Assembly (NCBI GenBank): GCA_949292785.1
Contig: CASFBK010000006.1
Coordinates: 1 to 64,000, forward strand
DNA: 64,000 bases
DNA from: an uncultured Eubacteriales bacterium
Lineage (GTDB): Bacteria > Bacillota > Clostridia > Lachnospirales > Lachnospiraceae
Direction: 5' to 3'
The position numbers and the translations under genes were made by a program. The notes under the pieces were generated by a model. That model was given only the letters and a program-made list of their open reading frames with translations. It was not told where the DNA came from and made no database searches. Of the stretch, positions 26,310 to 39,240 are shown one piece after another. The first letter of the stretch is position 1. Every line of letters starts with the position of its first letter.

Positions 26310-27245
26310 TTGGCAGAAAAGGACCTGACAGAAAAATATTTAGAAGGATTTCGAGATGTTTTTGCTGATATTCATAATGTGCTTTTATTCCGGGAAGAGT
26401 TAATCAGAGAAGAAGAACTAGAAGACGGCTCTACAGAAAGTACATACAAGGCAGAAGAGGGGAATGTTCGTAATCAGTTTCGGGATACTTCAAAGTATTA
26501 TCGGAATTGCCAATATAAGCTGGCACTTTTAGGAATAGAAAATCAAAGTAAAGTGGAGAAAGACATGCCGATTCGAATTATGGGCTACGATTATACTGCT
26601 TATCGGGCACAGATAGACGCAGAGGAGAAAAGAAGGTATCCGGTTATTACAACAGTGCTTAACTTTAGCGATACGGAATGGGAGAGTCCACTGTCACTTT
26701 ATGATATATTGGATATTCCGGAAAAACTGCAACCATATGTGAATGATTATAAGATTCATGTTTTTAACGTTGCTTTTTTGCCAAAAGAGACCAGAAATAA
26801 GTTTAAAAGTGACTTCAAGATAGTAGCTGATTTTTTTACGGAAAAGCGGTTGGGAATTTATAATCCGGCAGAGCATAAAGAACAGATAAAGCATGTAGAA
26901 GCGGTGTTAAATATGATTCGGGTATTTACAAATGATGTAACCTATGACAAAATAGAATTAGAAATCATAGAAAAATCGAAGAAGGGAGAAGTGATAACAA
27001 TGTGTACGTTTGCAGAAGAAATGACGAATAAGGGAATCAAAATCGGAGAAGCACGCGGAATAGAAATTGGAGAAGCACGTGGGATAGAAATCGGAGAAGC
27101 ACGTGGAATAGAAATCGGAGAAGCACGCGGAATGGCGCAGGAAAAAATCAATGTTGCCAGAAACCTTCTGGATATTCTTTCGGATGAGGTCATTGCCGAA
27201 AAGGTGGAATTGGACATAGAAGTAGTTCGGTCACTTAGAAGTTAA
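26310..27245 (+). CDS. Rpn family (recombination-promoting nuclease / transposase_31-like) protein
   Basis: 311 residues from TTG 26310 (ACGGAGG 13 nt upstream). The N-terminal PD-(D/E)XK-like region starts MAEKDLTEKYLEGFRDVFADIHNVLLF; residues about 85-180 contain IRIMGYDYTAYRAQI and PVITTVLNFSDTEW, the nuclease core of the Rpn group. Near the C-terminus an eight-residue unit, GI-x-IGEAR, is repeated four times (24-bp repeats at 27033-27128). This is a feature of Rpn proteins that can vary in number. Rpn proteins can cut DNA and promote RecA-independent recombination in E. coli. A shortened paralogue lies at 38830. Confidence 0.85.
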   Translation: MAEKDLTEKYLEGFRDVFADIHNVLLFREELIREEELEDGSTESTYKAEEGNVRNQFRDTSKYYRNCQYKLALLGIENQSKVEKDMPIRIMGYDYTAYRAQIDAEEKRRYPVITTVLNFSDTEWESPLSLYDILDIPEKLQPYVNDYKIHVFNVAFLPKETRNKFKSDFKIVADFFTEKRLGIYNPAEHKEQIKHVEAVLNMIRVFTNDVTYDKIELEIIEKSKKGEVITMCTFAEEMTNKGIKIGEARGIEIGEARGIEIGEARGIEIGEARGMAQEKINVARNLLDILSDEVIAEKVELDIEVVRSLRS

Positions 27246-27288
27246 AAGCGCTGGTAATAAAGAGATATATGGAAAATAAATAGAAGTG

Positions 27289-27333
27289 AAAAAAGCGGTT
27301 TACGGCATATAAAATGTCGTAAACCGCTTTTTT
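27289..27333 (+). terminator. Strong terminator after the Rpn gene
   Basis: A perfect 16-bp stem (27289-27304 with 27318-27333), ending in TTTTTT. The following stretch to 27685 holds only operator-like repeats. Confidence 0.9.
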
Positions 27334-27394
27334 GTGTGTAAGTAATATTTATTCTCAAAAATGAGAAAAGCACATTTTGCTGTTTTGTGAAAAG

Positions 27395-27685: not shown

Positions 27686-28717
27686 ATGAAAAAGAAATTA
27701 TTATCACTGTTATTAATATTAGGACTTATCACTGGTGCAGCAGGATGCGGAAACAGTAACAATACAAGAAGTACCGGAACAAATGCAGGAGAAAATCAAA
27801 CCTCAGAGGAAGGTTCCTTAGAAAACGTTCGGTTGGGAGTATTTACCGGCGGACCGGACCAGTACCTCGCGGTAGTGGGAAAAGAGCAGGGAATTTTTGA
27901 AAAACACGGAATCAATCTTGAGATTACCGAATTTGCAGCAGGAATCAATACCGTAGATGCCATTGTAACAGGTCAGTCAGATGTGGGAATGATTGCAGAC
28001 TTTGCAGGTATCAACCGGATTGGAAATACTCAGGAGAATTTTAATATCCGTATTATTGGAAGATACACCACAGCAAAAAATTATAGCCTGTATGTCAATC
28101 CTGATGAAGTGACAAAGCTGGAAGATTTGTCAGGCAAAGGACTTGCAACCATGCCGGGCACCATTCTTGATTACTACAATGCACTTACCTATGAAAAAGC
28201 CAATATCAAAGAAGAAGACCGGAAGCTTGTAAATGTTGATAGTGGTCAGACCGTGTTAAGTGTTTTTGAAAGTGGAGATGCCGTGGCGTTTTGGACAGCC
28301 GGCACAACAGCCAAAAAGCTGGAAGAATCAGGAATGAAAGAGTTTCTGACAATGGAGGATTTGGGCGTTTCCGTAGATGCCTACTACGTTTCCTCAGATT
28401 CCTATATTAAGGAACATGCAGATACTTTAGAAAAATTCCTTTCTGCAATCAAGGAAACAGAAGAATGGATATTGGCAAACCAGGAGACAGCAGCGGAAAT
28501 TATAGAGGGAAAAACAGGCGTTCCACAGGAACAGGTACTTCAGAACTTAGAAGCCAACGAGCTGCTTTTGGATTTCAAACAGGATTCCATAGACCATTTA
28601 AATGAAATTAAGGAATGGGCGTTAGGTGCCGGACTTTTTGAAAAGGACTATGAAATCAAAGACTTTGTAGATACCACTGTTTTAGAAAACGTGTTTCCTG
28701 ATGATGTAGATTACTAA
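27686..28717 (+). CDS. ABC transporter substrate-binding lipoprotein 1 (SsuA/TauA-like)
   Basis: 343 residues with signal peptide MKKKLLSLLLILGLITGAAGC, lipidated at Cys21. The mature protein has the NMT1/SsuA-type fold: VRLGVFTGGPDQYLAVVGKEQGIFEKHGI, then EITEFAAGINTVDAIVTGQSDVG, the ligand cleft region. Proteins of this group bind sulfonates, taurine or other small anions outside the cell. It is the first gene of the cassette and one of three paralogues (also 32054 and 36883), all sharing the EITEFAAGINTVDAIVT core. AAAGGAGG precedes the ATG. Confidence 0.92.
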   Translation: MKKKLLSLLLILGLITGAAGCGNSNNTRSTGTNAGENQTSEEGSLENVRLGVFTGGPDQYLAVVGKEQGIFEKHGINLEITEFAAGINTVDAIVTGQSDVGMIADFAGINRIGNTQENFNIRIIGRYTTAKNYSLYVNPDEVTKLEDLSGKGLATMPGTILDYYNALTYEKANIKEEDRKLVNVDSGQTVLSVFESGDAVAFWTAGTTAKKLEESGMKEFLTMEDLGVSVDAYYVSSDSYIKEHADTLEKFLSAIKETEEWILANQETAAEIIEGKTGVPQEQVLQNLEANELLLDFKQDSIDHLNEIKEWALGAGLFEKDYEIKDFVDTTVLENVFPDDVDY

Positions 28718-28803
28718 AAAATAAATGATGAAAAATAAAAGAAGAAAAGTAAAAAAGAAAAATGGCAATGAAAATGGCAATGAAAAGCAGAAAAGGAGAA
28801 TGA

Positions 28804-30114
28804 ATGATGGCAATTAACAATAAAAAAATATTTCAGGACATTTATGATGCATATGTATATGCCTACCCGGCAGTAATTCTTGAGCTGACAAGAAGAGTTT
28901 CCTTAAATCCGTCCAAGGATGAAAAGAAAATTTTAAAGACAAACACTTTATTCCATACCACTGAATTAGCAGATGCTTCCTTCAAGCATGTAGTGGCACC
29001 AAATATTGATACCGTTTACTCCCAAGGCTGGCTTGATTTAAGTAAGGGTGCCTTAATATTGGAAAAACCGGACTTAGACCGTTATGTATCCATTGCATTT
29101 TTAGATGCTTACACCAACTGCGAAAATATTATCGGTACCGGTGGAGATGGCAACCAGGCAGCACGCTATCTGATTACAGGACCGGATTTTACCGAAGAGG
29201 TGCCAAAGGACTACCGGCAGATTGCACTTCCAACCAATAAGAACTGGGTCATTGTCCGTACCATTATTTATGGAAAAGATGATGTAGAAGCAGTAAAAGA
29301 GATTCAGAGCAAACTTCAGTTCAAACCTTACGGAAATGCAAAACAGGAAATCGTTTACACTTCCCATCATCCGGAGTTTGTATATAAGCCTATTGAAAAA
29401 ATTACCAATCTGTCCTTAGAAGAATTCTTCACCATTTTCAACGAATTATTAGAGGGCAATCCGGATAAATATGCGCCGAAGGATAAGTTAGAACAGTGGA
29501 AAACTTATGGAATCGGCAAAGGAGAAGTTTTTACCAGCAAGAAAGAGGTAAGAGCCTTAGAAGCAGAAGTAAAGCAGACATTTCTCGATGAAACAAACAG
29601 AGGCTTAAAAGAAGGAAACAAGATAAATAACTGGAGCTATCCGAACTCTGCCATTGGTATTTACAAGACAGATTATCTGCTGCGAGCCAATGTAGCACGA
29701 AATGGATTAGGAGCAAATCCGGTAACTATGTGCGTTTATCCCTCTATTTATACAGATGAGAAGGGCAATCCGCTGGATGGAAAGAAACGTTATCAGATTC
29801 ATTTTGAAAAGGGACAGCTGCCGCCGATGCATGAGAATGGCTTTTGGTCTGTCACCTTGTATGACAGCAAGGAACGCTATCTGGTAGAAAATGAAATTCA
29901 CCGGTATGGAATTAATGACCGGGATGTGCTTAAGGAAAATGCAGATGGCAGCATTGACATTCTCATTCAGCAGGAAAGACCGGAAGCAGAATTTGTTACG
30001 AATTGGCTTCCATCCGGAAAGGAAGCATTTAATCTGGTCTTGCGTATCTATCTGACCAGGGAAGAGGTAATTACAGGTCAGTGGAAGCCTCCGGTAGTAC
30101 GTGAAATTCAGTAA
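28804..30114 (+). CDS. DUF1254/DUF1214 domain protein
   Basis: 436 residues. DUF1254 occupies roughly residues 20-150 (YDAYVYAYPAVILELTRR, NIDTVYSQGWLDLSKGALILEKP). DUF1214 covers about 320-430 (YQIHFEKGQLPPMHENGFWSVTLYD, VLRIYLTREEVITGQWKPP). No signal peptide is seen, unlike many relatives, so it should be cytoplasmic. The family function is not established. Its place between the first binding protein and the ATPase, inside an organosulfate cassette, suggests a role on the imported compound. AAAGGAG precedes the ATG. Confidence 0.88.
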   Translation: MMAINNKKIFQDIYDAYVYAYPAVILELTRRVSLNPSKDEKKILKTNTLFHTTELADASFKHVVAPNIDTVYSQGWLDLSKGALILEKPDLDRYVSIAFLDAYTNCENIIGTGGDGNQAARYLITGPDFTEEVPKDYRQIALPTNKNWVIVRTIIYGKDDVEAVKEIQSKLQFKPYGNAKQEIVYTSHHPEFVYKPIEKITNLSLEEFFTIFNELLEGNPDKYAPKDKLEQWKTYGIGKGEVFTSKKEVRALEAEVKQTFLDETNRGLKEGNKINNWSYPNSAIGIYKTDYLLRANVARNGLGANPVTMCVYPSIYTDEKGNPLDGKKRYQIHFEKGQLPPMHENGFWSVTLYDSKERYLVENEIHRYGINDRDVLKENADGSIDILIQQERPEAEFVTNWLPSGKEAFNLVLRIYLTREEVITGQWKPPVVREIQ

Positions 30115-30147
30115 GAACATTTAGAGGAAAGAAGAAGGAGACTGGCT

Positions 30148-31209
30148 ATGTATATAGAATTAAAAAATATTAACAAAACATTTGGAGATTACAAGGCATC
30201 TGACAATGTAAGCTTTGGAATTGAAAAAGGAAAGCTGATTGCACTTTTAGGACCGAGCGGAAGCGGAAAAACAACAATTCTTCGTATGATAGCTGGTCTG
30301 GAACATCAGGATGAGGGAGATATTTATATTGATGGAACATGCGTCAATGATGTTCCTGTAAAAGACAGGGAAATCGGTTTTGTATTTCAGAATTATGCGC
30401 TCTTTCCGTATTTGAATGTATTTGACAACATTGCATATGGATTAAAGGTGCGAAAAGCAGATAAGGAATATATCAGGAAGCGGGTGACAGAGCTTCTGGA
30501 ACTGGTGGGACTTCCGGGGCTGGAAAAACGTTATCCCAGCCAGCTTTCCGGCGGTCAGAGACAACGTGTGGCATTTGCAAGGGCCTTAGCACCCAATCCA
30601 CAGGTACTGCTATTAGATGAACCCTTTGCAGCCATTGACGCCAAGGTAAGGAAAGAGCTGCGAAGCTGGTTAAAGGAAATGATTGAAAAAATCGGTATTA
30701 CCAGTATTTTTGTAACCCATGACCAGGATGAGGCAGTAGAAGTGGCGGATGAGATTATCGTAACCAATTTAGGAAGGGTAGAGCAGATGGGAACACCTAC
30801 AGAAATCTATAAGAATCCCAAAACTCCATTTGTAGCACAGTTTATCGGGGAATCTACGGTACTGACGGATTACGATAGATTAAAGGGATTCCAGATTTAT
30901 CATGACAGCCATAATGCCATTGTCCGCCCGGAGTTTGTAAAAGTAGTAAAGTACGGAAGCGTAAAGCAGTATCAGAGTCTGTATGCCGAAGGCATAGTGG
31001 AGAGCACTGCATTTCGTGGAAACTGCTTAGAGCTTTTGGTAAATGTAAACGGAATACAACTAAAAGCAATTCAATCCTTTGAAGAGGAACCCTTTGAAAA
31101 AGGCGAAAAGGTAGAGGTAATCGTATACCGGCTGTATGTGGTGGATGAAAACGAAGCACATCTTTTACAGAATGAAGGCTTGCAGGAAAACGACATGTTT
31201 TATATTTAG
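30148..31209 (+). CDS. ABC transporter ATP-binding protein (SsuB/TauB-like, with TOBE-like tail)
   Basis: 353 residues. Walker A GPSGSGKT (35-42), Q-loop FVFQNYALFP, signature LSGGQRQR (about 132-139), Walker B VLLLDEPFAAID and switch His in FVTHDQDEA. The last 110 residues (from about 240) form an additional domain like the TOBE regulatory tail of spermidine/iron-type ATPases, which SsuB and TauB normally lack. It should power import through the adjacent permease for all three binding proteins, as it is the only ATPase in the cassette. Confidence 0.93.
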   Translation: MYIELKNINKTFGDYKASDNVSFGIEKGKLIALLGPSGSGKTTILRMIAGLEHQDEGDIYIDGTCVNDVPVKDREIGFVFQNYALFPYLNVFDNIAYGLKVRKADKEYIRKRVTELLELVGLPGLEKRYPSQLSGGQRQRVAFARALAPNPQVLLLDEPFAAIDAKVRKELRSWLKEMIEKIGITSIFVTHDQDEAVEVADEIIVTNLGRVEQMGTPTEIYKNPKTPFVAQFIGESTVLTDYDRLKGFQIYHDSHNAIVRPEFVKVVKYGSVKQYQSLYAEGIVESTAFRGNCLELLVNVNGIQLKAIQSFEEEPFEKGEKVEVIVYRLYVVDENEAHLLQNEGLQENDMFYI

Positions 31210-31260
31210 TATGACTTTGTGAAAAATTTATCAAAGTATGTAAAAAAAAGGAGTATTAAG

Positions 31261-32040
31261 ATGAAGAAAGAAAAAAATACAGGAAAGGTAATCGCAGGAG
31301 TTATTTTAAAGTGTGGCATTATTACATGGATATTGTTGTTAGCAATCTGGCAGTTTGGGTCTCTGTTTTACAGCGATGATTTCTTACCGGGACCGGTTAC
31401 TACTTTTGCAGGAGCAGGAGACCTGGTGGCAGGCGGGGACCTTGGCAGAGATATATTGGTCAGTATGCAGCGTGTGTTAAAAGGGTGGCTTTTGGGCATC
31501 GTGTTTGCAGTTCCGGCAGGGCTTTGCATCGGTCATTTTAAGAAAGTTGGATTGATTTTTGAACCATTTTTAAATTTTTTCCGGTTTGTTCCGGCGATTG
31601 GTTTTATCACATTATTTTTAATGTGGTTTGGCGTAGGAGAAAAATCGAAGGTGGCGCTTATCTTTTATGCAGTAATATTCCCGGTCATGATTAATACCAT
31701 TGCCGGAGTAAGAACGGTAGACAGTGCATTGATAGAGGCTTCCCAGTCTCTGGGAGCCACTGGAATTAAAACTTTTTTCAGCGTGATTGTGCCCTCGGCA
31801 GTACCAAATATTTTTACCGGAGTACGATTGGGCTTAAGCGGAGCCATTATCTGTATCGTAGCGGCAGAAATGCTGGCAGCGTCGGAAGGGATTGGATATT
31901 TGATTTATACTTCCAGACTTTATTATAAGACGGACTGGATTTTTATCGGTATCTTTACCCTTGGAATGATTGGATTTTTGGCAGACAGATTGCTGCAGTT
32001 TGTGGGAAAAAAGTTTTTGAGAAGATTTGGAGTCAGATAA
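31261..32040 (+). CDS. ABC transporter permease (SsuC/TauC-like)
   Basis: 259 residues from ATG 31261 (AAAAGGAG 9 nt upstream; the open frame begins earlier without signals). Six hydrophobic segments and the BPD_transp_1 EAA loop (LIEASQSLGATGIKTFFSVIVPSAVPNIFTGVRLG, about 158-192) identify it as the membrane subunit of a sulfonate/nitrate/taurine-type importer. It probably works as a homodimer because no second permease is present. The next binding protein starts 13 bp later. Confidence 0.93.
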   Translation: MKKEKNTGKVIAGVILKCGIITWILLLAIWQFGSLFYSDDFLPGPVTTFAGAGDLVAGGDLGRDILVSMQRVLKGWLLGIVFAVPAGLCIGHFKKVGLIFEPFLNFFRFVPAIGFITLFLMWFGVGEKSKVALIFYAVIFPVMINTIAGVRTVDSALIEASQSLGATGIKTFFSVIVPSAVPNIFTGVRLGLSGAIICIVAAEMLAASEGIGYLIYTSRLYYKTDWIFIGIFTLGMIGFLADRLLQFVGKKFLRRFGVR

Positions 32041-32053
32041 AAGAGGAGGAAGC

Positions 32054-33064
32054 ATGATGAAAAAGAAAATTATCTCATTTTTAGTGATAGCAGGAATAAT
32101 GGCGGGAGCTATGGGATGTGGAAATGATAGCGCAGCAGTGGATAAGAAGAATACGGACAGTAAGAAGACCGAGGAAGGGCTGACAAAGGTTCGGATAGGA
32201 GTAATGACGGGGAATATCGACCATTGGCTGGTGGAGATTGGAATAGAAAAAGGAATCTTTGAGAAGTATGGAATTCAGCCGGAGATTACCGAGTTTGCTG
32301 CGGGAATTAATACGGTGGATGCTATCGTAACGAATCAATCTGACATTGGATTTCTGGCAGATTATGCAGCGGTGAATCGTTTGGGAAATACCCAGGATAA
32401 TACAGATATTCGTTTAATTGCCAAGTTTGTATCATCTTCCATAAACCGCTTATATGTAAATCCCAAAGAGGTGACAAAACTGGAGGATTTGGCAGGAAAG
32501 GGGCTGGTAACACTACCCGGAACCGTATGGGATTACTGGAATGCAAAAACGTTTGAAAAAGCAGGGATTCCAAAGGACGAACAGATTCTTGTAAATGTGG
32601 ATAGCGCACAGGCAGCATTGGGAGTTATGACGAACGGTGAAGGCGTGGCTTTCTGGGCTTCCGGAACCAATGGAAAAAAGCTGGAAGAAGCAGGTATGGA
32701 AGTATTGCTTGACATGAACAAGTTGGGATTACAGACGGACCAGTATTTTGTCACCACGGAAAAATATATAGAAGAAAATGAAGAAGTGGTAACCAATTAT
32801 CTGTTGGCAATTCAAGAGATTCAGGACTGGGTATTGAAAAATAAGGAAGAAGCCGCAAAAATCGCAGAGAGAGAAACAGGAATTCCTGCAGAGCAGTTCG
32901 CGACGAATTTAGATGCTCTGACATTATCCGTGGGATTGGAACAAGATACCATAGACCATTTGAACAGTATTAAGAACTGGGCTTTAGAGTCAGGAAATTT
33001 TGACAAGAATTTTGAAATTAATGATTACGTGGATACCACACCGCTGCAGAAAGGAGAGTTATGA
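32054..33064 (+). CDS. ABC transporter substrate-binding lipoprotein 2
   Basis: 336 residues from ATG 32054 (GAGGAGG upstream). Signal peptide MMKKKIISFLVIAGIMAGAMGC is lipidated at Cys22. The mature domain is close to the third paralogue (NTDxRLIA, SAQAxLGVMT, KLEEAGME segments shared) and more distant from the first. It overlaps the alkylsulfatase start by 4 bp, so the binding protein and sulfatase are translationally coupled, which suggests that it delivers the sulfatase substrate (alkyl sulfate). This pairing is inference. Confidence 0.92.
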   Translation: MMKKKIISFLVIAGIMAGAMGCGNDSAAVDKKNTDSKKTEEGLTKVRIGVMTGNIDHWLVEIGIEKGIFEKYGIQPEITEFAAGINTVDAIVTNQSDIGFLADYAAVNRLGNTQDNTDIRLIAKFVSSSINRLYVNPKEVTKLEDLAGKGLVTLPGTVWDYWNAKTFEKAGIPKDEQILVNVDSAQAALGVMTNGEGVAFWASGTNGKKLEEAGMEVLLDMNKLGLQTDQYFVTTEKYIEENEEVVTNYLLAIQEIQDWVLKNKEEAAKIAERETGIPAEQFATNLDALTLSVGLEQDTIDHLNSIKNWALESGNFDKNFEINDYVDTTPLQKGEL

Positions 33065-35037
33065 TGAGACAGTTAAATAATGAGCCGAAGGAAGCAAGTA
33101 ATTATACCAGAGAATATCAAAAGAAGTTTGCGAAAGAATGGAATATTGATATTGCTCATGCCACAAACAGCGAGCTGGAGCTGGCAAAATCTCATAACAT
33201 ATATAAAACGGAAGATAAAAAAATTTTTGGAAGAAATGGAAAAGAAGTGTGGGATTTGGGAGAGTACGGTTTCTTAAAAGAAGAAGCGGTTCCGGATACC
33301 ATTAATCCCAGCCTTTGGCTGAATGCAAAATCTAATTTTCAGGCAGGATTGTTCTGGGTGGTAAAGGATAAGATTTTTCAGGTAAGAGGATTTGACATTG
33401 CAAATATTACATTTGTACGCTCCAAAACAGGATTTATTGTATTGGATACGGGAACCCTGGTGGAGAGTGCACAGGCGGCATTAGACGTAGCGGAACATGG
33501 ACTCGGTGAAAATATCCGGAACAATATCCGGGCAGTAATTATCAGTCATTCCCATACGGACCACTACGGTGGAGTAGCAGGAATCGTAAAAGAAGAAGAG
33601 GTAGGCGAACCTTCCGAAGGAAAAATTCCTATTTATGTGCCGGAGGGATTTGCAAGAGAGACGGTAAGTGAATCCATATATGCAGGAACTGCAATGTCCA
33701 GAAGAGCAAGGTATCAGTTCGCCCACGGAAAACCGGCAGGAAGAAAATCGGTGATTTCAACTGGTCTTGGTCTGGCGGGAACAAGAGGCGGAGGAACGGT
33801 TTCCTATCTCAATCCTACCTATGAGATAAAAGAGAATCAGACAATCGTGATTGATGGATTAGAAGTAGAGTTTCAGTTGACACCGGGAACAGAAGCACCG
33901 GCAGAAATGAATAATTATTTTCCAGAGTATCGTGCGTTTTGGGCAGCAGAAAACTGCACGGCAACACTCCATAATTTTTATCCTATTCGAGGCGCAAAAG
34001 TAAGGGATTCCAGTATCTGGTCAGATTTTACCATAGAGGCATTGGAGAAATATGGAGATAAAACAGACGTTGTTTTTCAGTCCCATCACTGGCCCCATTG
34101 GAATACGGAGGAGAATCCCAATGCGGTAAAAGATTATCTGAGAAATAATGCAGCTATTTATAAATATATCCATGACCAGACCTTATTGTATGCAAATCAG
34201 GGCTATACGCAGAATGAGATTGCTCACAAAATTAAGCTTCCAAGGAAATTGCAGGAGGCATGGTATATCAGACCCTATTATGGAACTGTTGAAGTGAACT
34301 CAAAAGCGGTATATCAGAGATATCTGGGATATTATAATGCCAATCCGGTGACATTACATCCTCTGACAGAAGCAGAGACTGCAAAGAAATTTGTAGAGTA
34401 TGTTGGTTCGGAAGAGAAGGTGCTAGAAAAGGTGCAGCAGGATTTAGATAATGGAAATTATCAGTGGGCAGCTACCGCGGCAAATTATGTAGTATTTGCA
34501 AATCCGCAAAATACCAGGGCAAGATATTTGTGTGCAGATGCCTTAGAACAGTTAGGCTATCAGGCGGAGTCTGCAATTTGGAGAAATGCATATCTGATTG
34601 GAGCAGAGGAACTTAGAAACGGCACACCGCAGGTAAGTAAGGAGGCAGTGGAAGCCCAGAAGGGAAACCTCATTGATAGAATGGATGCAAGAATGGCACT
34701 CGGATATCTTGGAATTGTTCTGGATGGAGAAAAAGCGGCAGAAGAGGATATTAAGTTCCGGCTTCAGATGATAGAAGAAAAAAGCGGCGCTATAAAGGAG
34801 ACCTATCTTCTTCACCTGTATGCAGGAAGTCTGCTGATTTATGAGGGAGATAATGTAGAAGAGCTGCCGTATGTACGACTTTCTGAAAAAGCGCTGACAG
34901 CCCTGATTCGTAAAAAATTGGACAATGTCCGGGATAAGATAGATACGGACATTTATGATGTTTTAAAACGAATCGAATCCTATGTGGTAGACTTGTCAGA
35001 ATATTCGCAGTTCCATATTGTAGACAGGGAGGAATAG
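33061..35037 (+). CDS. Alkylsulfatase, metallo-beta-lactamase fold (SdsA1/Bds1 family)
   Basis: 658 residues. The metal-binding motif SHSHTDHYGG (about 161-170) is the family's H-x-H-x-D-H. Further ligands lie in AAENCTATLHNFYPIRGAKVRD and FQSHHWPHW. A dimerization domain (about 370-510) and an SCP2-like C-terminal domain (about 530-658) follow. Relatives hydrolyse primary or secondary alkyl sulfates such as SDS to alcohol and sulfate using two zinc ions. No signal peptide is present, so hydrolysis would be intracellular after import. Overlap with the second binding protein supports coupling of uptake and cleavage. Confidence 0.94.
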   Translation: MMRQLNNEPKEASNYTREYQKKFAKEWNIDIAHATNSELELAKSHNIYKTEDKKIFGRNGKEVWDLGEYGFLKEEAVPDTINPSLWLNAKSNFQAGLFWVVKDKIFQVRGFDIANITFVRSKTGFIVLDTGTLVESAQAALDVAEHGLGENIRNNIRAVIISHSHTDHYGGVAGIVKEEEVGEPSEGKIPIYVPEGFARETVSESIYAGTAMSRRARYQFAHGKPAGRKSVISTGLGLAGTRGGGTVSYLNPTYEIKENQTIVIDGLEVEFQLTPGTEAPAEMNNYFPEYRAFWAAENCTATLHNFYPIRGAKVRDSSIWSDFTIEALEKYGDKTDVVFQSHHWPHWNTEENPNAVKDYLRNNAAIYKYIHDQTLLYANQGYTQNEIAHKIKLPRKLQEAWYIRPYYGTVEVNSKAVYQRYLGYYNANPVTLHPLTEAETAKKFVEYVGSEEKVLEKVQQDLDNGNYQWAATAANYVVFANPQNTRARYLCADALEQLGYQAESAIWRNAYLIGAEELRNGTPQVSKEAVEAQKGNLIDRMDARMALGYLGIVLDGEKAAEEDIKFRLQMIEEKSGAIKETYLLHLYAGSLLIYEGDNVEELPYVRLSEKALTALIRKKLDNVRDKIDTDIYDVLKRIESYVVDLSEYSQFHIVDREE

Positions 35038-35043
35038 TATCAA

Positions 35044-35361
35044 ATGATTATAACTTTAACGCAGGACAATTTTGAAAGCGTGATAAACAATCTGGAAAAA
35101 CCAGTGGTAGTGGAGTTTTTTTCTCCTACTTGTAGTCATTGTAAAATGACCGAAGTCGGTCTTTTGGAGCTTTCCAATGAAAATCCGGATATTGCAGTTT
35201 ATGCAAGCTGTGACATTACAAAAGAAGAAGCCTTAGCAAAACGTTTTGATATAACGGCATTGCCAACACTTTTATTTATAAAAAATGGCGATATGAAAAA
35301 TAAATTAACAGGTTTTACACACAAGCTGATTATTTCAGAAGAAATAAAAAAACTTTTATAA
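35044..35361 (+). CDS. Thioredoxin-like protein
   Basis: 105 residues with the thioredoxin fold (VVVEFFSPTCSHCKMTEV). The active site is CSHC (about 31-34) rather than the canonical CGPC, and cis-Pro is in ALPTLLF. It is cytoplasmic. It lies between the alkylsulfatase and the arylsulfotransferase with spacings of 6 and 15 bp. Likely roles are maintaining a thiol in one of these enzymes or supplying reductant. CSHC suggests a redox potential unlike housekeeping thioredoxin. Confidence 0.92.
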   Translation: MIITLTQDNFESVINNLEKPVVVEFFSPTCSHCKMTEVGLLELSNENPDIAVYASCDITKEEALAKRFDITALPTLLFIKNGDMKNKLTGFTHKLIISEEIKKLL

Positions 35362-35376
35362 AGGAGACGAGCAAAT

Positions 35377-36861
35377 ATGGGTTATCCAAGTATTTTTCCA
35401 ACAGGAACAACCATTTATAAGAAAGACAAGGCATACAATGGCTATACAATTTTTCCATCTGCAAAGGGAGCACTTCTCATAGATATGAATGGAAACGAGG
35501 TTCAACTCTGGGCAGGGCTGGGCGGATTTCCTAATAAAATCCTTCCGGGAGGCTATGTAATGGGCACCACTGGCGCAAGAGGCGGAAAATATGCCTATCA
35601 GGACCAGATAGATTTGGTTCAGGTAGACTGGGATGGGAACATTGTATGGAAATTTGACCATACGGAACTTGTTGCTGACCCGGGGAAAGAACCGGTCTAC
35701 ATGGCAAGACAGCACCACGATTATCAGAGGGAAGGCTCAACGGTGGGATATTACTATCCGGGTGGAGAACCCAAAACGAATAGCGGGAATACCCTTATTC
35801 TGACCCATGAGAACTTATATAACCATGACATCTCAGATAAACGGCTGATAGACGACAAGATTATCGAGGTAGACTGGGAAGGTAAAATTCTCTGGAGCTG
35901 GAGAGCAAGTGACCACTTCGACCAGCTTGGGTTCGATGAAGCGGCAAAAAATGCGCTTTACAGAAACCCCGGACTTCACGGAGAAGCAGGCGGAGATTGG
36001 ATGCATATTAATAACTTTTCAACACTTGGGGAAAACAAGTGGTACGATGGAGGGGATGAAAGATTTCATCCCGATAATATTATATTTGATGCACGAAATT
36101 CAAATATACTTGGAATTATTTCAAAGAAAACAGGAGATATTGTCTGGAGAGTTGGACCGGATTTTAATGAAAGCGAAGCCACCAGAAAGCTTGGCTGGAT
36201 TATTGGACAGCATCATTTACATATGATTCCCAAAGGACTTCCGGGAGAAGGAGATTTGCTTGTTTTTGACAATGGCGGTGAGGGTGGATACGGCGTTCCC
36301 AATCCTGCTTCTGCTACGGGCGTAAATAATGCACACAGGGATTATTCCCGCGTATTACAGTTTAATCCAATTACATTGGAAATTACCTGGCAATACACTC
36401 CAATCGAAGCCGGAGCCTTACTGTTTACAGATGCATCTAAATTTTACAGCTCCTATATCAGTGCGGCACAAAGACTTCCCAATGGAAACACTCTTATCAC
36501 GGAGGGCTCCGATGGAAGACTGATTGAGGTGACACCGGAACACGAAATAGTATGGGAATATATCAACCCCTATTTTAATCAGATATTTGGAAACTTTTCA
36601 AACAATATGATTTACAGAGCTTACCGCGTTCCATATGAATGGATTCCACAGCTTGAAAAACCGGAGGAATATTCTATTGAGCCTGTCAATGTAGAGGGCT
36701 TTCGAGTGCCGGGTTCGCCGATTGGAGCAGATGCCGGAAAAGTTACAATCATTGATGGAGTAGACCCCAAAAAGCGTCAGATGACAGGCGGAGGAAGCGA
36801 AGAGGAGGCAGAAGAGAGAATTGATTTTTGCGTAGCAAGTGTAAAAAAGAGTGAATTATAA
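35377..36861 (+). CDS. Arylsulfate sulfotransferase (ASST), cytoplasmic type
   Basis: 494 residues of the PAPS-independent arylsulfotransferase family (beta-propeller). These enzymes move sulfate from one phenolic sulfate to another phenol through a sulfo-histidine intermediate. Candidate catalytic residues lie in IGQHHLHMIPKG and NAHRDYSRVLQF, and the NTLITEGSDGRLIEVT propeller blade is typical. No signal peptide is visible, in contrast to the periplasmic E. coli enzyme. ASST was first described from a human gut Eubacterium (A-44). GGAGACG precedes the ATG. Next to an alkylsulfatase it points to sulfate-ester metabolism in the gut. Confidence 0.9.
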   Translation: MGYPSIFPTGTTIYKKDKAYNGYTIFPSAKGALLIDMNGNEVQLWAGLGGFPNKILPGGYVMGTTGARGGKYAYQDQIDLVQVDWDGNIVWKFDHTELVADPGKEPVYMARQHHDYQREGSTVGYYYPGGEPKTNSGNTLILTHENLYNHDISDKRLIDDKIIEVDWEGKILWSWRASDHFDQLGFDEAAKNALYRNPGLHGEAGGDWMHINNFSTLGENKWYDGGDERFHPDNIIFDARNSNILGIISKKTGDIVWRVGPDFNESEATRKLGWIIGQHHLHMIPKGLPGEGDLLVFDNGGEGGYGVPNPASATGVNNAHRDYSRVLQFNPITLEITWQYTPIEAGALLFTDASKFYSSYISAAQRLPNGNTLITEGSDGRLIEVTPEHEIVWEYINPYFNQIFGNFSNNMIYRAYRVPYEWIPQLEKPEEYSIEPVNVEGFRVPGSPIGADAGKVTIIDGVDPKKRQMTGGGSEEEAEERIDFCVASVKKSEL

Positions 36862-36882
36862 GATAAGTTTGGAGGAAACACT

Positions 36883-37881
36883 ATGAAAAAGAGGGTAATA
36901 TCATTTCTTGTAATATTAGGATTACTGGCAGCCGCAACCGGATGCGGTTCTCAAAGCCAGGCGGCTGATGGAAAAGACAGCAAAACGTCAGAAGAATTAC
37001 AGACAATAAGACTGGGTGTCATGACCGGAAACAGTGACCAGTGGCTGGCAGAGGTTGGAACAGAAAAAGGAATTTTTGAAAAATATGGGATTCAGCTAGA
37101 GATTACCGAGTTTGCAGCAGGAATCAATACCGTAGATGCCATTGTAACAGAACAGGTCGATATAGGAAATTTGGCGGATTATGCAGCAGTGAACCGGTTG
37201 GGAAATACACAGGAAAATACAGATTTACGTCTAATTGCAAATTATGCATCTTCCGCAGTCGCTCAACTATATGTAAATCCCAAAGAAGTGACAAAGCTTG
37301 AAGATTTGGCGGGCAAAGGATTAGTGACACAACCGGGAACCGTATGGGACTACTGGAATGCAAAAACACTGGAAAAAGCGGGGATTCCTGAAGAAGAGCA
37401 GGTATTGGTAAACGTGGACAGTGCGCAGGCATCATTGGGAGTGATGACAACAGGAGAAGGAGTAGCAGTGTGGGCTTCTGGAACCAACGCAAAGAAGTTA
37501 GAAGAGGCTGGAATGGAGAAGTTGATGGATATGGAGGAACTTGGGTTGCGTACAGATTCCTATTTTGTTACTACAGAGAAATACATCAAAGACAATGAGG
37601 CGCTTGTAACTAATTACTTGCAGGCAATCAAAGAAACCCAGGAATGGGTACAGGAAAACCAGCAGGAGGCAGCCAAAATCGTAGAGGAAAAAACAGCAAT
37701 TCCTCAGGAACAGTTTTTGGAAAATCTGGAAGTATTGCAAATGGGAGTAAGTTTTGAACAGGATACTATAGACCATTTAACCGGCATTAAGGACTGGGCT
37801 TTCGAAGCAGGACGATTTGAAAAGGATTTTGAAATCACTGATTTTATAGATACTGCACCTCTTGAAAATGGAGATTTTTAA
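36883..37881 (+). CDS. ABC transporter substrate-binding lipoprotein 3
   Basis: 332 residues. Signal peptide MKKRVISFLVILGLLAAATGC is lipidated at Cys21. It is a close paralogue of binding protein 2 (long shared stretches around AIVTEQVDIGNLADYAAVNRLGNTQENTDLRLIA and VNVDSAQASLGVMTTGEG). It lies 21 bp after the arylsulfotransferase. It has no ATPase or permease of its own and so must share those at 30.1-32.0 kb. Positioned after ASST, it may deliver aryl sulfates, as its sister may deliver alkyl sulfates. Confidence 0.92.
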   Translation: MKKRVISFLVILGLLAAATGCGSQSQAADGKDSKTSEELQTIRLGVMTGNSDQWLAEVGTEKGIFEKYGIQLEITEFAAGINTVDAIVTEQVDIGNLADYAAVNRLGNTQENTDLRLIANYASSAVAQLYVNPKEVTKLEDLAGKGLVTQPGTVWDYWNAKTLEKAGIPEEEQVLVNVDSAQASLGVMTTGEGVAVWASGTNAKKLEEAGMEKLMDMEELGLRTDSYFVTTEKYIKDNEALVTNYLQAIKETQEWVQENQQEAAKIVEEKTAIPQEQFLENLEVLQMGVSFEQDTIDHLTGIKDWAFEAGRFEKDFEITDFIDTAPLENGDF

Positions 37882-37934
37882 AGCTGGGACAATGCTAACA
37901 GGAGTATCGTTATTGTAGTAAAAGGAGAAAAAAT

Positions 37935-38531
37935 ATGGAAAACACTACATTACATTCCTATCAGGGAATTACTTATGAAAAAAGAAAATTGACGAATCAG
38001 ATTTTATTGAAAGTGATTACTGATGATTACAATCAGGTAAAATATAAAAGTGAAATTTTTGAGGAGAATGCCAATGTAATTAAACAGGCGGAAATGGTCA
38101 GTCAGCAGGATGCGTGCCCGGTTAAGATAAATCATGAACTGGAGCATATAATGGAAGTTCTTCATAAGCATTACGAAACGCTTCGTGCCAGAAATACCCA
38201 GACTGCTCCAGTGACTTTTGTGGAGAAGCCGCTGGAGGTATCGGAGGAGGATAGTGAATTCCTTTTAGCCAACGGGAGTATGGCGATTTTTGCGAAATAT
38301 TACGAGGAAGGGACGAAGGAAAAACTATTAAACCATGAAATTTTACCTCTTGTGACAACAGAAAATTTTAAGAATAATGATTATGTATTTATTGATAATA
38401 TAATAGAATCCATAGAAAAGAAACAAAGTAAACTTGAGGCATTTCTTGTAAAAGATGATTTAGAGCCGGTTGATGTATGGCTTCCAAGAAATCTGAAAGA
38501 TACACACAAGTATGAAAAAATCTGGAAATAG
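37935..38531 (+). CDS. Hypothetical protein closing the organosulfur cassette
   Basis: 198 residues, soluble, with no recognised motif. It contains one histidine-rich helix (INHELEHIMEVLHKHYETL, about 65-83) that could bind metal, and a Lys-rich C-terminus. The ribosome site is AAAGGAG. It starts 53 bp after binding protein 3 and is probably the last gene of the operon, before the right-hand Rpn repeat. Function is unknown. The association with the sulfur genes is positional only. Confidence 0.7.
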   Translation: MENTTLHSYQGITYEKRKLTNQILLKVITDDYNQVKYKSEIFEENANVIKQAEMVSQQDACPVKINHELEHIMEVLHKHYETLRARNTQTAPVTFVEKPLEVSEEDSEFLLANGSMAIFAKYYEEGTKEKLLNHEILPLVTTENFKNNDYVFIDNIIESIEKKQSKLEAFLVKDDLEPVDVWLPRNLKDTHKYEKIWK

Positions 38532-38576: not shown

Positions 38577-39240
38577 TAAAAGTTCTAAAAGTATTCTAAA
38601 AGATTCTGGAAGACACTTGTGTTTTCTGGAATCTTTGTATATATTGTTATATACTGGAAAAAAATTCTGGGAAGTTCTTAAGCAACAATTCTTTTTAAAA
38701 TCTCATATCAATCAGAAGTCTGAAAATTCCATTTCCGGAATAGGAAACAATTAAGTAAGTATATATAAATACCAAAGACAAGCAATGAGGAGAATAAACA
38801 AAATAGAAAAACAGGGGGGAAATGAAAGGTTGGCAGAAAAAGACCTGACAGAAAAATATTTAGAGTCATTTCGAGATGTTTTTGCTGATATTCATAATGT
38901 ACTTTTGTTCCAGGAAGAGCTAATCAGGGAAGAAGAACTAAATATGATTCGAGTATTTACAAATGATTCGACTTATGACAAAATAGAATCAGGAATTATA
39001 GAAAGAGCGAAAGCAGGAGAGGTGATAACAATGTGCACGTTTGCAGAGGAAATGACAAATAAGGGAATAAAAATCGGAGAAGCGCGTGGAATAGAAATCG
39101 GAGAAGCCCGCGGAATCCAAATGGGAATTGCACAGGATAAAATCAATGTTGCCAGAAACCTTCTGGATATTCTTTCAGACGAAGTAATTGCAGAAAAGGT
39201 AGAGTTAGACATTCAGGTGGTTCGGTCACTTAGGAGTTAA
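38577..39240 (+). repeat. Right copy of the duplicated Rpn unit
   Basis: The leader from AAAGTATTCTAAAA through the TTCTTTTTAAAATCTCATATCA stretch, and the gene, match 26048-27245, apart from a 489-bp internal deletion and one or two fewer 24-bp repeats. Confidence 0.75.
38830..39240 (+). pseudogene. Internally deleted Rpn family gene
   Basis: From TTG 38830, at the position homologous to the left copy, the frame encodes 136 residues. The first 37 match the left protein almost exactly. Then residues 38-200 of the left copy are missing in one clean in-frame deletion (junction EEEL-NMIRVF), and the C-terminal region follows with two GI-x-IGEAR units instead of four. The whole nuclease core is lost, so it cannot cut DNA. 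It could still make a small protein that binds Rpn or DNA, but decay is the simpler reading. ATG 38785 opens the same frame without homology support. Confidence 0.8.

Follow-up and report, generated by a model that had tools for sequence, protein, structure and literature searches.

Introduction

Classical exported aryl sulfotransferases (ASTs; Clusters I and II) carry an export signal, and DsbL makes or keeps the disulfide of the exported ASST. The enzyme considered here is an ASST-fold protein encoded within a ten-gene cassette (27686-38531, + strand) of a 64,000-nucleotide window, which comprises positions 1 to 64,000 of contig CASFBK010000006.1 (GCA_949292785.1) from an uncultured Eubacteriales bacterium of the Lachnospiraceae with a genome of 3.65 Mb (G000). 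Judged from sequence and gene neighbourhood, it is predicted to take the sulfo group from an imported aryl sulfate and pass it to a cysteine in its own tail or to a thioredoxin, and thioredoxin would then release sulfite as in the adenosine 5'-phosphosulfate (APS) and 3'-phosphoadenosine 5'-phosphosulfate (PAPS) reductases but without ATP, a reading to which we assign a probability of about 0.6. It starts from what was observed, namely the genes, their neighbourhoods, gene fusions, the conservation of residues and a predicted fold.

Described ASTs are about 70 kDa with an N-terminal beta-sandwich (available parts of PMC11468790 and PMC13426309), and EcASST forms a sulfo-His436 from which the sulfo group is then passed on (available part of PMC13426309). 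The plant APS reductase is described, in the available part of PMC9426629, as forming an S-sulfocysteine from which a C-terminal CxxC domain releases sulfite. By analogy, the tail cysteine and the thioredoxin, sometimes fused, of the present system would represent APS reductase logic on an ASST scaffold. The ASST family is thus a known one and it is the proposed use that is new; no report of an AST acting with thioredoxin to yield sulfite was found in one open-access library, and we know of no pathway map on which anaerobes form sulfite by an ASST-type route.

Active site and tail cysteine

The window ASST (35377..36861, + strand, 494 aa; predicted organosulfate:dithiol sulfotransferase releasing sulfite) starts MGYPSIFPTG, matches the PF05935 profile (1.9e-23) and takes the propeller fold in a predicted model, of which residues 7-425 align to residues 117-571 of EcASST (3elq). 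No signal peptide is seen by eye at the start of this protein or of the alkylsulfatase encoded upstream. The sulfo-histidine site can be read across from EcASST, with H279 equivalent to His436 and H210, N212 and R240 equivalent to His356, Asn358 and Arg374; the equivalents of His252 and Thr501 are not firmly placed. All four residues are invariant in the 49 sequences of alignment A1, which were hand-picked from 101 full-length relatives with thioredoxin fusions and tandem copies left out.

Cys485 (codon at 36829..36831, + strand) is the only cysteine of the protein and sits in a flexible C-terminal tail, outside the comparison with 3elq since residues past 425 are barely covered. The tail cysteine is kept in 90 of the 101 full-length relatives, in which the sulfo-histidine site is likewise mostly kept; its 49/49 in A1 overstates conservation because that alignment omits the fusions and tandem copies. 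An independent sample of 28 loci from the phylum retained it in 26/26 assessable cases, a contig-edge locus (L170) and a distant one (L171) not being assessable. A mainly DsbL-like role for the thioredoxin, in making or keeping an ASST disulfide, was considered and rejected because the window ASST has a single cysteine.

Six spirochaete and Synergistaceae loci carry tandem ASST genes, in which one copy is without the His210 equivalent but has the tail cysteine and the other copies keep the site without the cysteine, an arrangement suggesting that the copies divide the job between them. A different kind of paralogue, with His210 replaced by Thr and no tail cysteine, directly precedes a normal ASST in two further loci (L032:8617-9996 and L033:8617-9996).

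Thioredoxin and lipoyl partners

The thioredoxin gene (35044..35361, + strand; PF00085, 1.5e-21) encodes a CSHC motif, and its product is the probable dedicated partner of the ASST. A CxHC motif, which DsbA also has, gives the first cysteine a lower pKa. Among 87 non-duplicate loci a thioredoxin lies within 6 kb of the ASST in 29, is fused to it in six and is neither near nor fused in 52 (33, six and 52 when duplicates are included, 91 loci). CxHC is found in 17/17 non-duplicate thioredoxins within 200 bp of ASST relatives, whereas the thioredoxin of the operon that encodes sulfite reductase (SiR) and ThiF has it in 0/10 non-duplicates, with CVPC, CVAC or CVVC instead. Only two of the 29 near thioredoxins are not CxHC, one with CTYC at 885 bp (L024) and one with CVAC, which is the thioredoxin of its SiR operon (L062).

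Fusions with thioredoxin at the ASST C-terminus were confirmed by Pfam in L128, L130, L131, L077, L082, L095 and L164, and L012 is very likely another, judged from 82% identity to L130. In a tree of ASST domains the fusions form two well-supported clades (L012/L130/L131/L164 and three spirochaetes) with L128 apart, so that fusions take up at least two, and probably three, distinct positions in the tree. A TrxB-like gene adjoins the fusion in L130 and L131, and in a predicted model the fused thioredoxin of L130, which comes after a disordered linker, has a pLDDT of about 84-95.

A second type of partner was found in sulfate reducers (L079, L083, L081) and Deltaproteobacteria (L091, L093), in which the ASST stands with a GcvH-like lipoyl protein and Lpd; L079 and L083 also have LipA/LipB-like genes at the ASST, and a glutaredoxin/radical-SAM-like protein is among the neighbours in both groups. 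In the phylum sample (28 loci, flanks of ~1.5 kb) neighbours of the lipoyl, Lpd, LipA-LipB or glutaredoxin-radical-SAM type occur in 7/28 and thioredoxin or TrxB in 3/28. Thioredoxin and lipoyl partners may be different carriers for one type of chemistry, in which a dithiol works with a flavin reductase. Sulfate reducers also have, beside the ASST, a conserved protein of 280 aa (L083:9125-9967 and relatives) whose start is glutaredoxin-like and whose remainder resembles NrdG2.

Distribution and co-occurring genes

A collection of 84,980 species genomes contained 516 stretches that encode an ASST relative. The named loci are the best 80 of these 516 and are for that reason biased to close relatives; they include records of Ruminococcus, Blautia, Anaerostipes, Pseudobutyrivibrio, Neobacillus, Clostridium, Desulforamulus, Moorella, Spirochaetaceae and Synergistaceae. 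ASST is present in 16/397 sampled genomes of the window's family and, by profile A1, in 25/398 sampled genomes of its phylum, and the other sampled genome of its genus (G176) gave no ASST match. Duplicates were recognised among genomes (G400=G159, G402=G243, G414=G261, G639=G314) and loci (L121=L062, L125=L023, L126=L026, L127=L057), and the calling of open reading frames missed the ASST of L129, the thioredoxin of L027 and the SiR of L122 and L123, tblastn recovering the SiR genes.

A survey of gene neighbourhoods had been proposed in an earlier note on this DNA. A permease cluster stands beside the ASST in at least 62 of the 80 named loci, so that the grouping of importer and ASST is not chance, but an alkylsulfatase does so in at least 6/80 (L029, L030, L042, L043, L061, L096) and the two enzymes are not a fixed pair; both counts are lower bounds because many loci are short. 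DUF1254 relatives occur in 5/80 named loci, all five with an alkylsulfatase (5 of the 6 alkylsulfatase loci). The core would therefore seem to be importer and ASST, with the alkylsulfatase/DUF1254 pair as a probable add-on. That DUF1254 travels with alkylsulfatase is in itself a lead to a DUF1254 function. In L073 and L074, and downstream in L083, the ASST adjoins nitrogenase-like NifH/Oxidored_nitro genes, perhaps for a sulfur-scavenging nitrogenase-like reductase.

Exchange of modules in the sulfite reductase operon

Contig C5 of the window genome carries an operon for an ABC importer, read as a putative sulfate importer, together with AprA (NF005331, 967.9 bits, cut-off 557), an AprB-like ferredoxin (TIGR02060, under cut-off), CysD (517.8 bits, cut-off 413), CysN, MetY, SiR, TusA, thioredoxin, ThiF and JAMM. 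The operon of Blautia sp. MSJ-9 (L047) runs, by Pfam names, ATPase, permease, substrate-binding protein, thioredoxin, ASST, TrxB, MetY, SiR, TusA, thioredoxin, ThiF and JAMM. In gut Clostridia the ASST thus occupies the slot of AprAB/CysDN in the MetY-SiR-TusA-ThiF-JAMM operon. Close variants occur in L039, L040, L041, L058, L122 and L123, with TrxB sometimes on the opposite strand; L054 and L062 have the SiR operon with ASST but without the ASST-side thioredoxin and TrxB, and L031-L035 and L072 have the ASST and parts of the SiR operon in divergent order. Siroheme genes are often near these operons.

The exchange can be counted. Among 35 non-duplicate loci with this SiR, 0/16 with ASST have CysDN/AprAB as against 8/19 without (Fisher p 0.003), a value that is indicative only, since the sampling of the two sets differed and their members are related by descent. 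The 19 loci without ASST divide into eight with CysDN/AprAB, four with a sulfonate-type glycyl radical enzyme (one locus has both) and eight with neither. The 20 comparison loci were hand-picked among the matches listed; L119 is without SiR of this type, L100 belongs to the window genome and the other 18 come from genomes without ASST.

Sulfur assimilation across genomes

The sulfite/nitrite reductase domain PF01077 was found in 14/16 family genomes with ASST and in 184/381 without (p 0.0017), and in 13/13 and 151/307 respectively when the count was limited to genomes with completeness of 90% or more and contamination of 5% or less. CysD over its cut-off occurs in 4/16 and 71/381, which is no real difference, and the notion that its absence is special to ASST genomes was rejected as this baseline shows it to be the family norm. 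Within the 322 family genomes without CysD over cut-off, PF01077 is present in 11/12 with ASST and 131/310 without (p 0.0007), and within those with CysD in 3/4 and 53/71.

Sat was detected in 3/44 ASST genomes searched (41 unique), these being both Neobacillus and Desulforamulus, and a PF01507 match of at least 125 bits is absent from 39/71 unique ASST genomes, a line set for CysD/CysH under which some genomes counted as without it have weaker PF01507 matches (e.g. G050, G148, G369, G420). Four genomes (G102, G261, G394 and G407, the last the source of L047) gave neither a PF01507 nor a Sat match of any strength, so that no ATP sulfurylase or PAPS reductase was detected in them, and carry the SiR operon with ASST. 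They need some source of sulfite, and the candidate in the operon is the ASST.

Proposed mechanism and alternatives

In the proposed route the substrate-binding proteins and ABC importer would take up aryl (and alkyl) sulfates; His279 would then attack an aryl sulfate, the phenol being freed and the sulfo-histidine held, and the sulfo group would move to the mobile Cys485 as S-sulfocysteine or directly to thioredoxin. Attack by the CxHC thioredoxin would put sulfite out and leave a thioredoxin disulfide, to be renewed by thioredoxin reductase, and the sulfite would enter the sulfite reductase operon, in the window genome that of contig C5. ATP sulfurylase would not be needed because the substrate is a ready-made ester. 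The substrates, the transfer to a thiol and sulfite as product are what we infer. Gene anatomy and co-conservation back two suggestions first made for this locus, that sulfate esters are imported and that the ASST is cytoplasmic, but the suggested release or transfer of sulfate holds only in part: sulfite is the more likely product of the ASST pathway, because relatives of the ASST often have thioredoxin as partner or fused domain, most of them keep the tail cysteine and the ASST stands in the operon place of a sulfate-to-sulfite module.

Alkyl sulfates are poorer sulfo donors, and it is aryl sulfates with good leaving groups that should drive the sulfo transfer. That alkyl sulfates should not drive it would account for the presence of a distinct alkylsulfatase, the sulfate from which depends on CysDN. 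They would probably be hydrolysed by this enzyme to inorganic sulfate for activation by CysDN/AprAB, the alkylsulfatase being probably an accessory that feeds the C5 operon with predicted sulfate. Of seven genomes with an alkylsulfatase in the ASST cluster, five, that of the window included, have a strong PF01507 match whose size fits CysD, an association that is suggestive only and not significant (p 0.14).

A number of observations weigh against the proposed route. The 52 of 87 loci without a thioredoxin fused or within 6 kb (many of them short contigs) include cases, such as the ASST of Bacilli and Clostridium, that would need a general thiol, and 11/101 full-length relatives are without the tail cysteine. 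The node that joins L128 to the first fusion clade is weak (support 0.53, 46 tips), the division between tandem copies counts as only one event in the ASST tree and the p-values ignore the relatedness of genomes and loci. As sulfo donors, aryl sulfates fall short of APS, and the reaction may therefore be near equilibrium; SsuA-like binding proteins could be equally suited to sulfonates. The absence of CysD, as the family norm, means no more than that those genomes do not turn sulfate into sulfite by the CysD route, and the window genome, having CysDN/AprAB, has no need of an ASST route.

In a hydrolytic alternative, which is close to the reading of the earlier note, alkylsulfatase and ASST would yield inorganic sulfate from imported esters for reduction through CysDN/AprAB of contig C5 and the thioredoxin would be a bystander or serve redox protection. 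The presence of the CysDN/AprAB-SiR operon in the same genome and the 5/7 association speak for it, the latter with the weakness already stated, but 12/16 ASST genomes of the family are without CysD over cut-off and 11 of those 12 have PF01077. The A-44 AST transfers without hydrolysing its donor (available part of PMC13426309), and with thioredoxin fusions and tail cysteine left unexplained we consider this route improbable.

About equally doubtful is an ordinary aryl sulfotransferase that moves sulfate from one cytoplasmic phenol to another, for detoxification or tailoring, with thioredoxin keeping its cysteines reduced. It has the AST-family fold and catalytic residues in its favour, and the closest fold, Cpz4, acts in tailoring during antibiotic synthesis (available part of PMC13426309). 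It fits poorly with ASST operons that hold sulfite reductase, MetY, ThiF and JAMM, with fusions in at least two and probably three places of the tree, and with a window protein in which the only cysteine to keep reduced is that of the tail itself. Least probable is a different chemistry at the same site, with a sulfonate substrate or with a product that is not free sulfite but thiosulfate or a directly used S-sulfo-carrier (Trx/TusA-SSO3-), since despite the SsuABC/TauABC-like importer, the TusA and ThiF/JAMM genes of the operon and a glycyl radical enzyme (NCBIfam (2S)-3-sulfopropanediol dehydratase in L101, and relatives) that heads the operon elsewhere, the sulfo-histidine site is of the S-O ester transfer type and the sulfite reductase fits free sulfite.

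Other genes of the cassette and its flanks

The earlier note had reported at this locus, besides three binding proteins with a single importer, an alkylsulfatase, a thioredoxin with the CSHC motif and an ASST without signal peptide; Pfam and NCBIfam are consistent with these names and, together with the SdsA1 match, confirm them. The shared operon that it proposed is likely, because the ten same-strand genes have gaps of at most 87 bp. The binding lipoproteins SBP1 (27686..28717, SsuA/NMT1-like; NMT1, E 3.5e-19), SBP2 (32054..33064; NMT1, 3.4e-12) and SBP3 (36883..37881; NMT1, 2e-14) look like duplicates, since SBP1 is 53-56% identical to the others and these are 71% identical to each other. 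For SBP2 the ATG start was taken over a longer TTG-start frame from 32027. The ABC ATPase (30148..31209; PF00005, 6.2e-37) has a TOBE domain and exceeds the cut-off of the sulfate ATPase model TIGR00968 (359.7 bits, cut-off 342.75), and the permease (31219..32040; PF00528, 9e-26) is of SsuC/TauC type with those models below cut-off. The description of the importer as SsuABC-like thus stands for the binding-protein and permease families but not by the curated models, the three binding proteins scoring 106.7, 86.3 and 91.9 bits with TIGR01728 (the curated SsuA subfamily; cut-off 163.5).

The alkylsulfatase (33061..35037) is of SdsA type by a metallo-beta-lactamase domain with the HxHxDH metal motif and an Alkyl_sulf_dimr domain (E 4.7e-56), and residues 8-602 of its 658 align with SdsA1 (2cfu, E 3.5e-133). 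Two genes were absent from the earlier note: a DUF1254/DUF1214 protein (28804..30114; PF06863, E 5.2e-39; PF06742, E 3.4e-34; VPA0735, E 8.6e-18), which like the ASST had no match in NCBIfam, and a 198-aa protein (37935..38531) that resembles the C-terminal part of a YbhJ-type hydratase (PRK11413, E 1.6e-7, far under cut-off) and has no Pfam match at E 0.001. Relatives of the latter lie near the ASST in L028, L032, L033, L037 and L046.

The cassette is flanked by two direct copies of one gene, presumably for an Rpn-like nuclease, at 26310-27245 upstream and at 38785-39240 downstream, the downstream copy internally deleted and no third full copy being found in the window genome; they are a possible trace of cassette insertion. 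An Rfam scan near the cassette gave no riboswitch, only three sub-threshold matches to 27279-27334 (two on one strand, one on the other), and a promoter scan there was uninformative (37 found, 31.3 expected). A Sao selenium operon was considered and dropped, as the SaoX/SaoP/SaoA matches score far under their cut-offs.

Implications and comparison with known systems

A wider proposal, to which we give slightly better than even odds, is that of a widespread 'organosulfate reductase' in which an ASST-fold enzyme and a dithiol carrier turn a sulfate ester into sulfite without ATP, for assimilation where sulfate is unusable. The carrier would be thioredoxin in gut Clostridia and spirochaetes and a lipoyl protein in sulfate reducers, perhaps with supply of electron acceptors as its purpose in sulfate and sulfite reducers. 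A demonstration of sulfite as product would make this a new entry into sulfur metabolism. The proposal gives one large leaderless AST group a specific and testable role and acceptor. Host and drug sulfate conjugates are possible substrates; if the proposal is true, aryl sulfates of host and diet (p-cresol and indoxyl sulfate, drug sulfates) may be sulfur sources for gut Clostridia without sulfate reduction, and would be deconjugated in the course of sulfur use. The route would provide sulfite for cysteine and methionine synthesis and spare the usual ATP-activation step, and it would suggest a purpose for a long-puzzling enzyme family.

The importer shares its binding-protein and permease families with SsuABC and TauABC, but it falls under their curated cut-offs, its ATPase is best read as a sulfate/phosphonate type with TOBE and it has three binding proteins. 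The alkylsulfatase has long homology to SdsA1 and the same HxHxDH motif, and differs from SdsA1, Pisa1 and YjcS in having no visible signal peptide, an importer operon and a weak C-terminal domain (PF14864, 23.6 bits, under 27). To our knowledge no thioredoxin link exists for Cpz4. Cpz4 (9kf4, the caprazamycin AST) is the closest fold, at 22% identity, with a role in antibiotic tailoring in the available part of PMC13426309. Compared with EcASST (3elq) and Clusters I and II, the window enzyme at 494 aa is without the N-terminal part and without a visible export signal, and it differs further in its added tail cysteine, in the thioredoxin or lipoyl partners of its relatives and in its context of sulfur assimilation. 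The likeness to the APS and PAPS reductases, among them the plant enzyme with its C-terminal glutaredoxin-like domain (available part of PMC9426629), lies in an S-sulfocysteine, here predicted, and in the CxxC partner that would resolve it, which may be a fused C-terminal domain; there is no PF01507 match in the window ASST at E 0.01, and whereas those reductases use an activated nucleotide sulfate, the ASST is predicted to use an ester.

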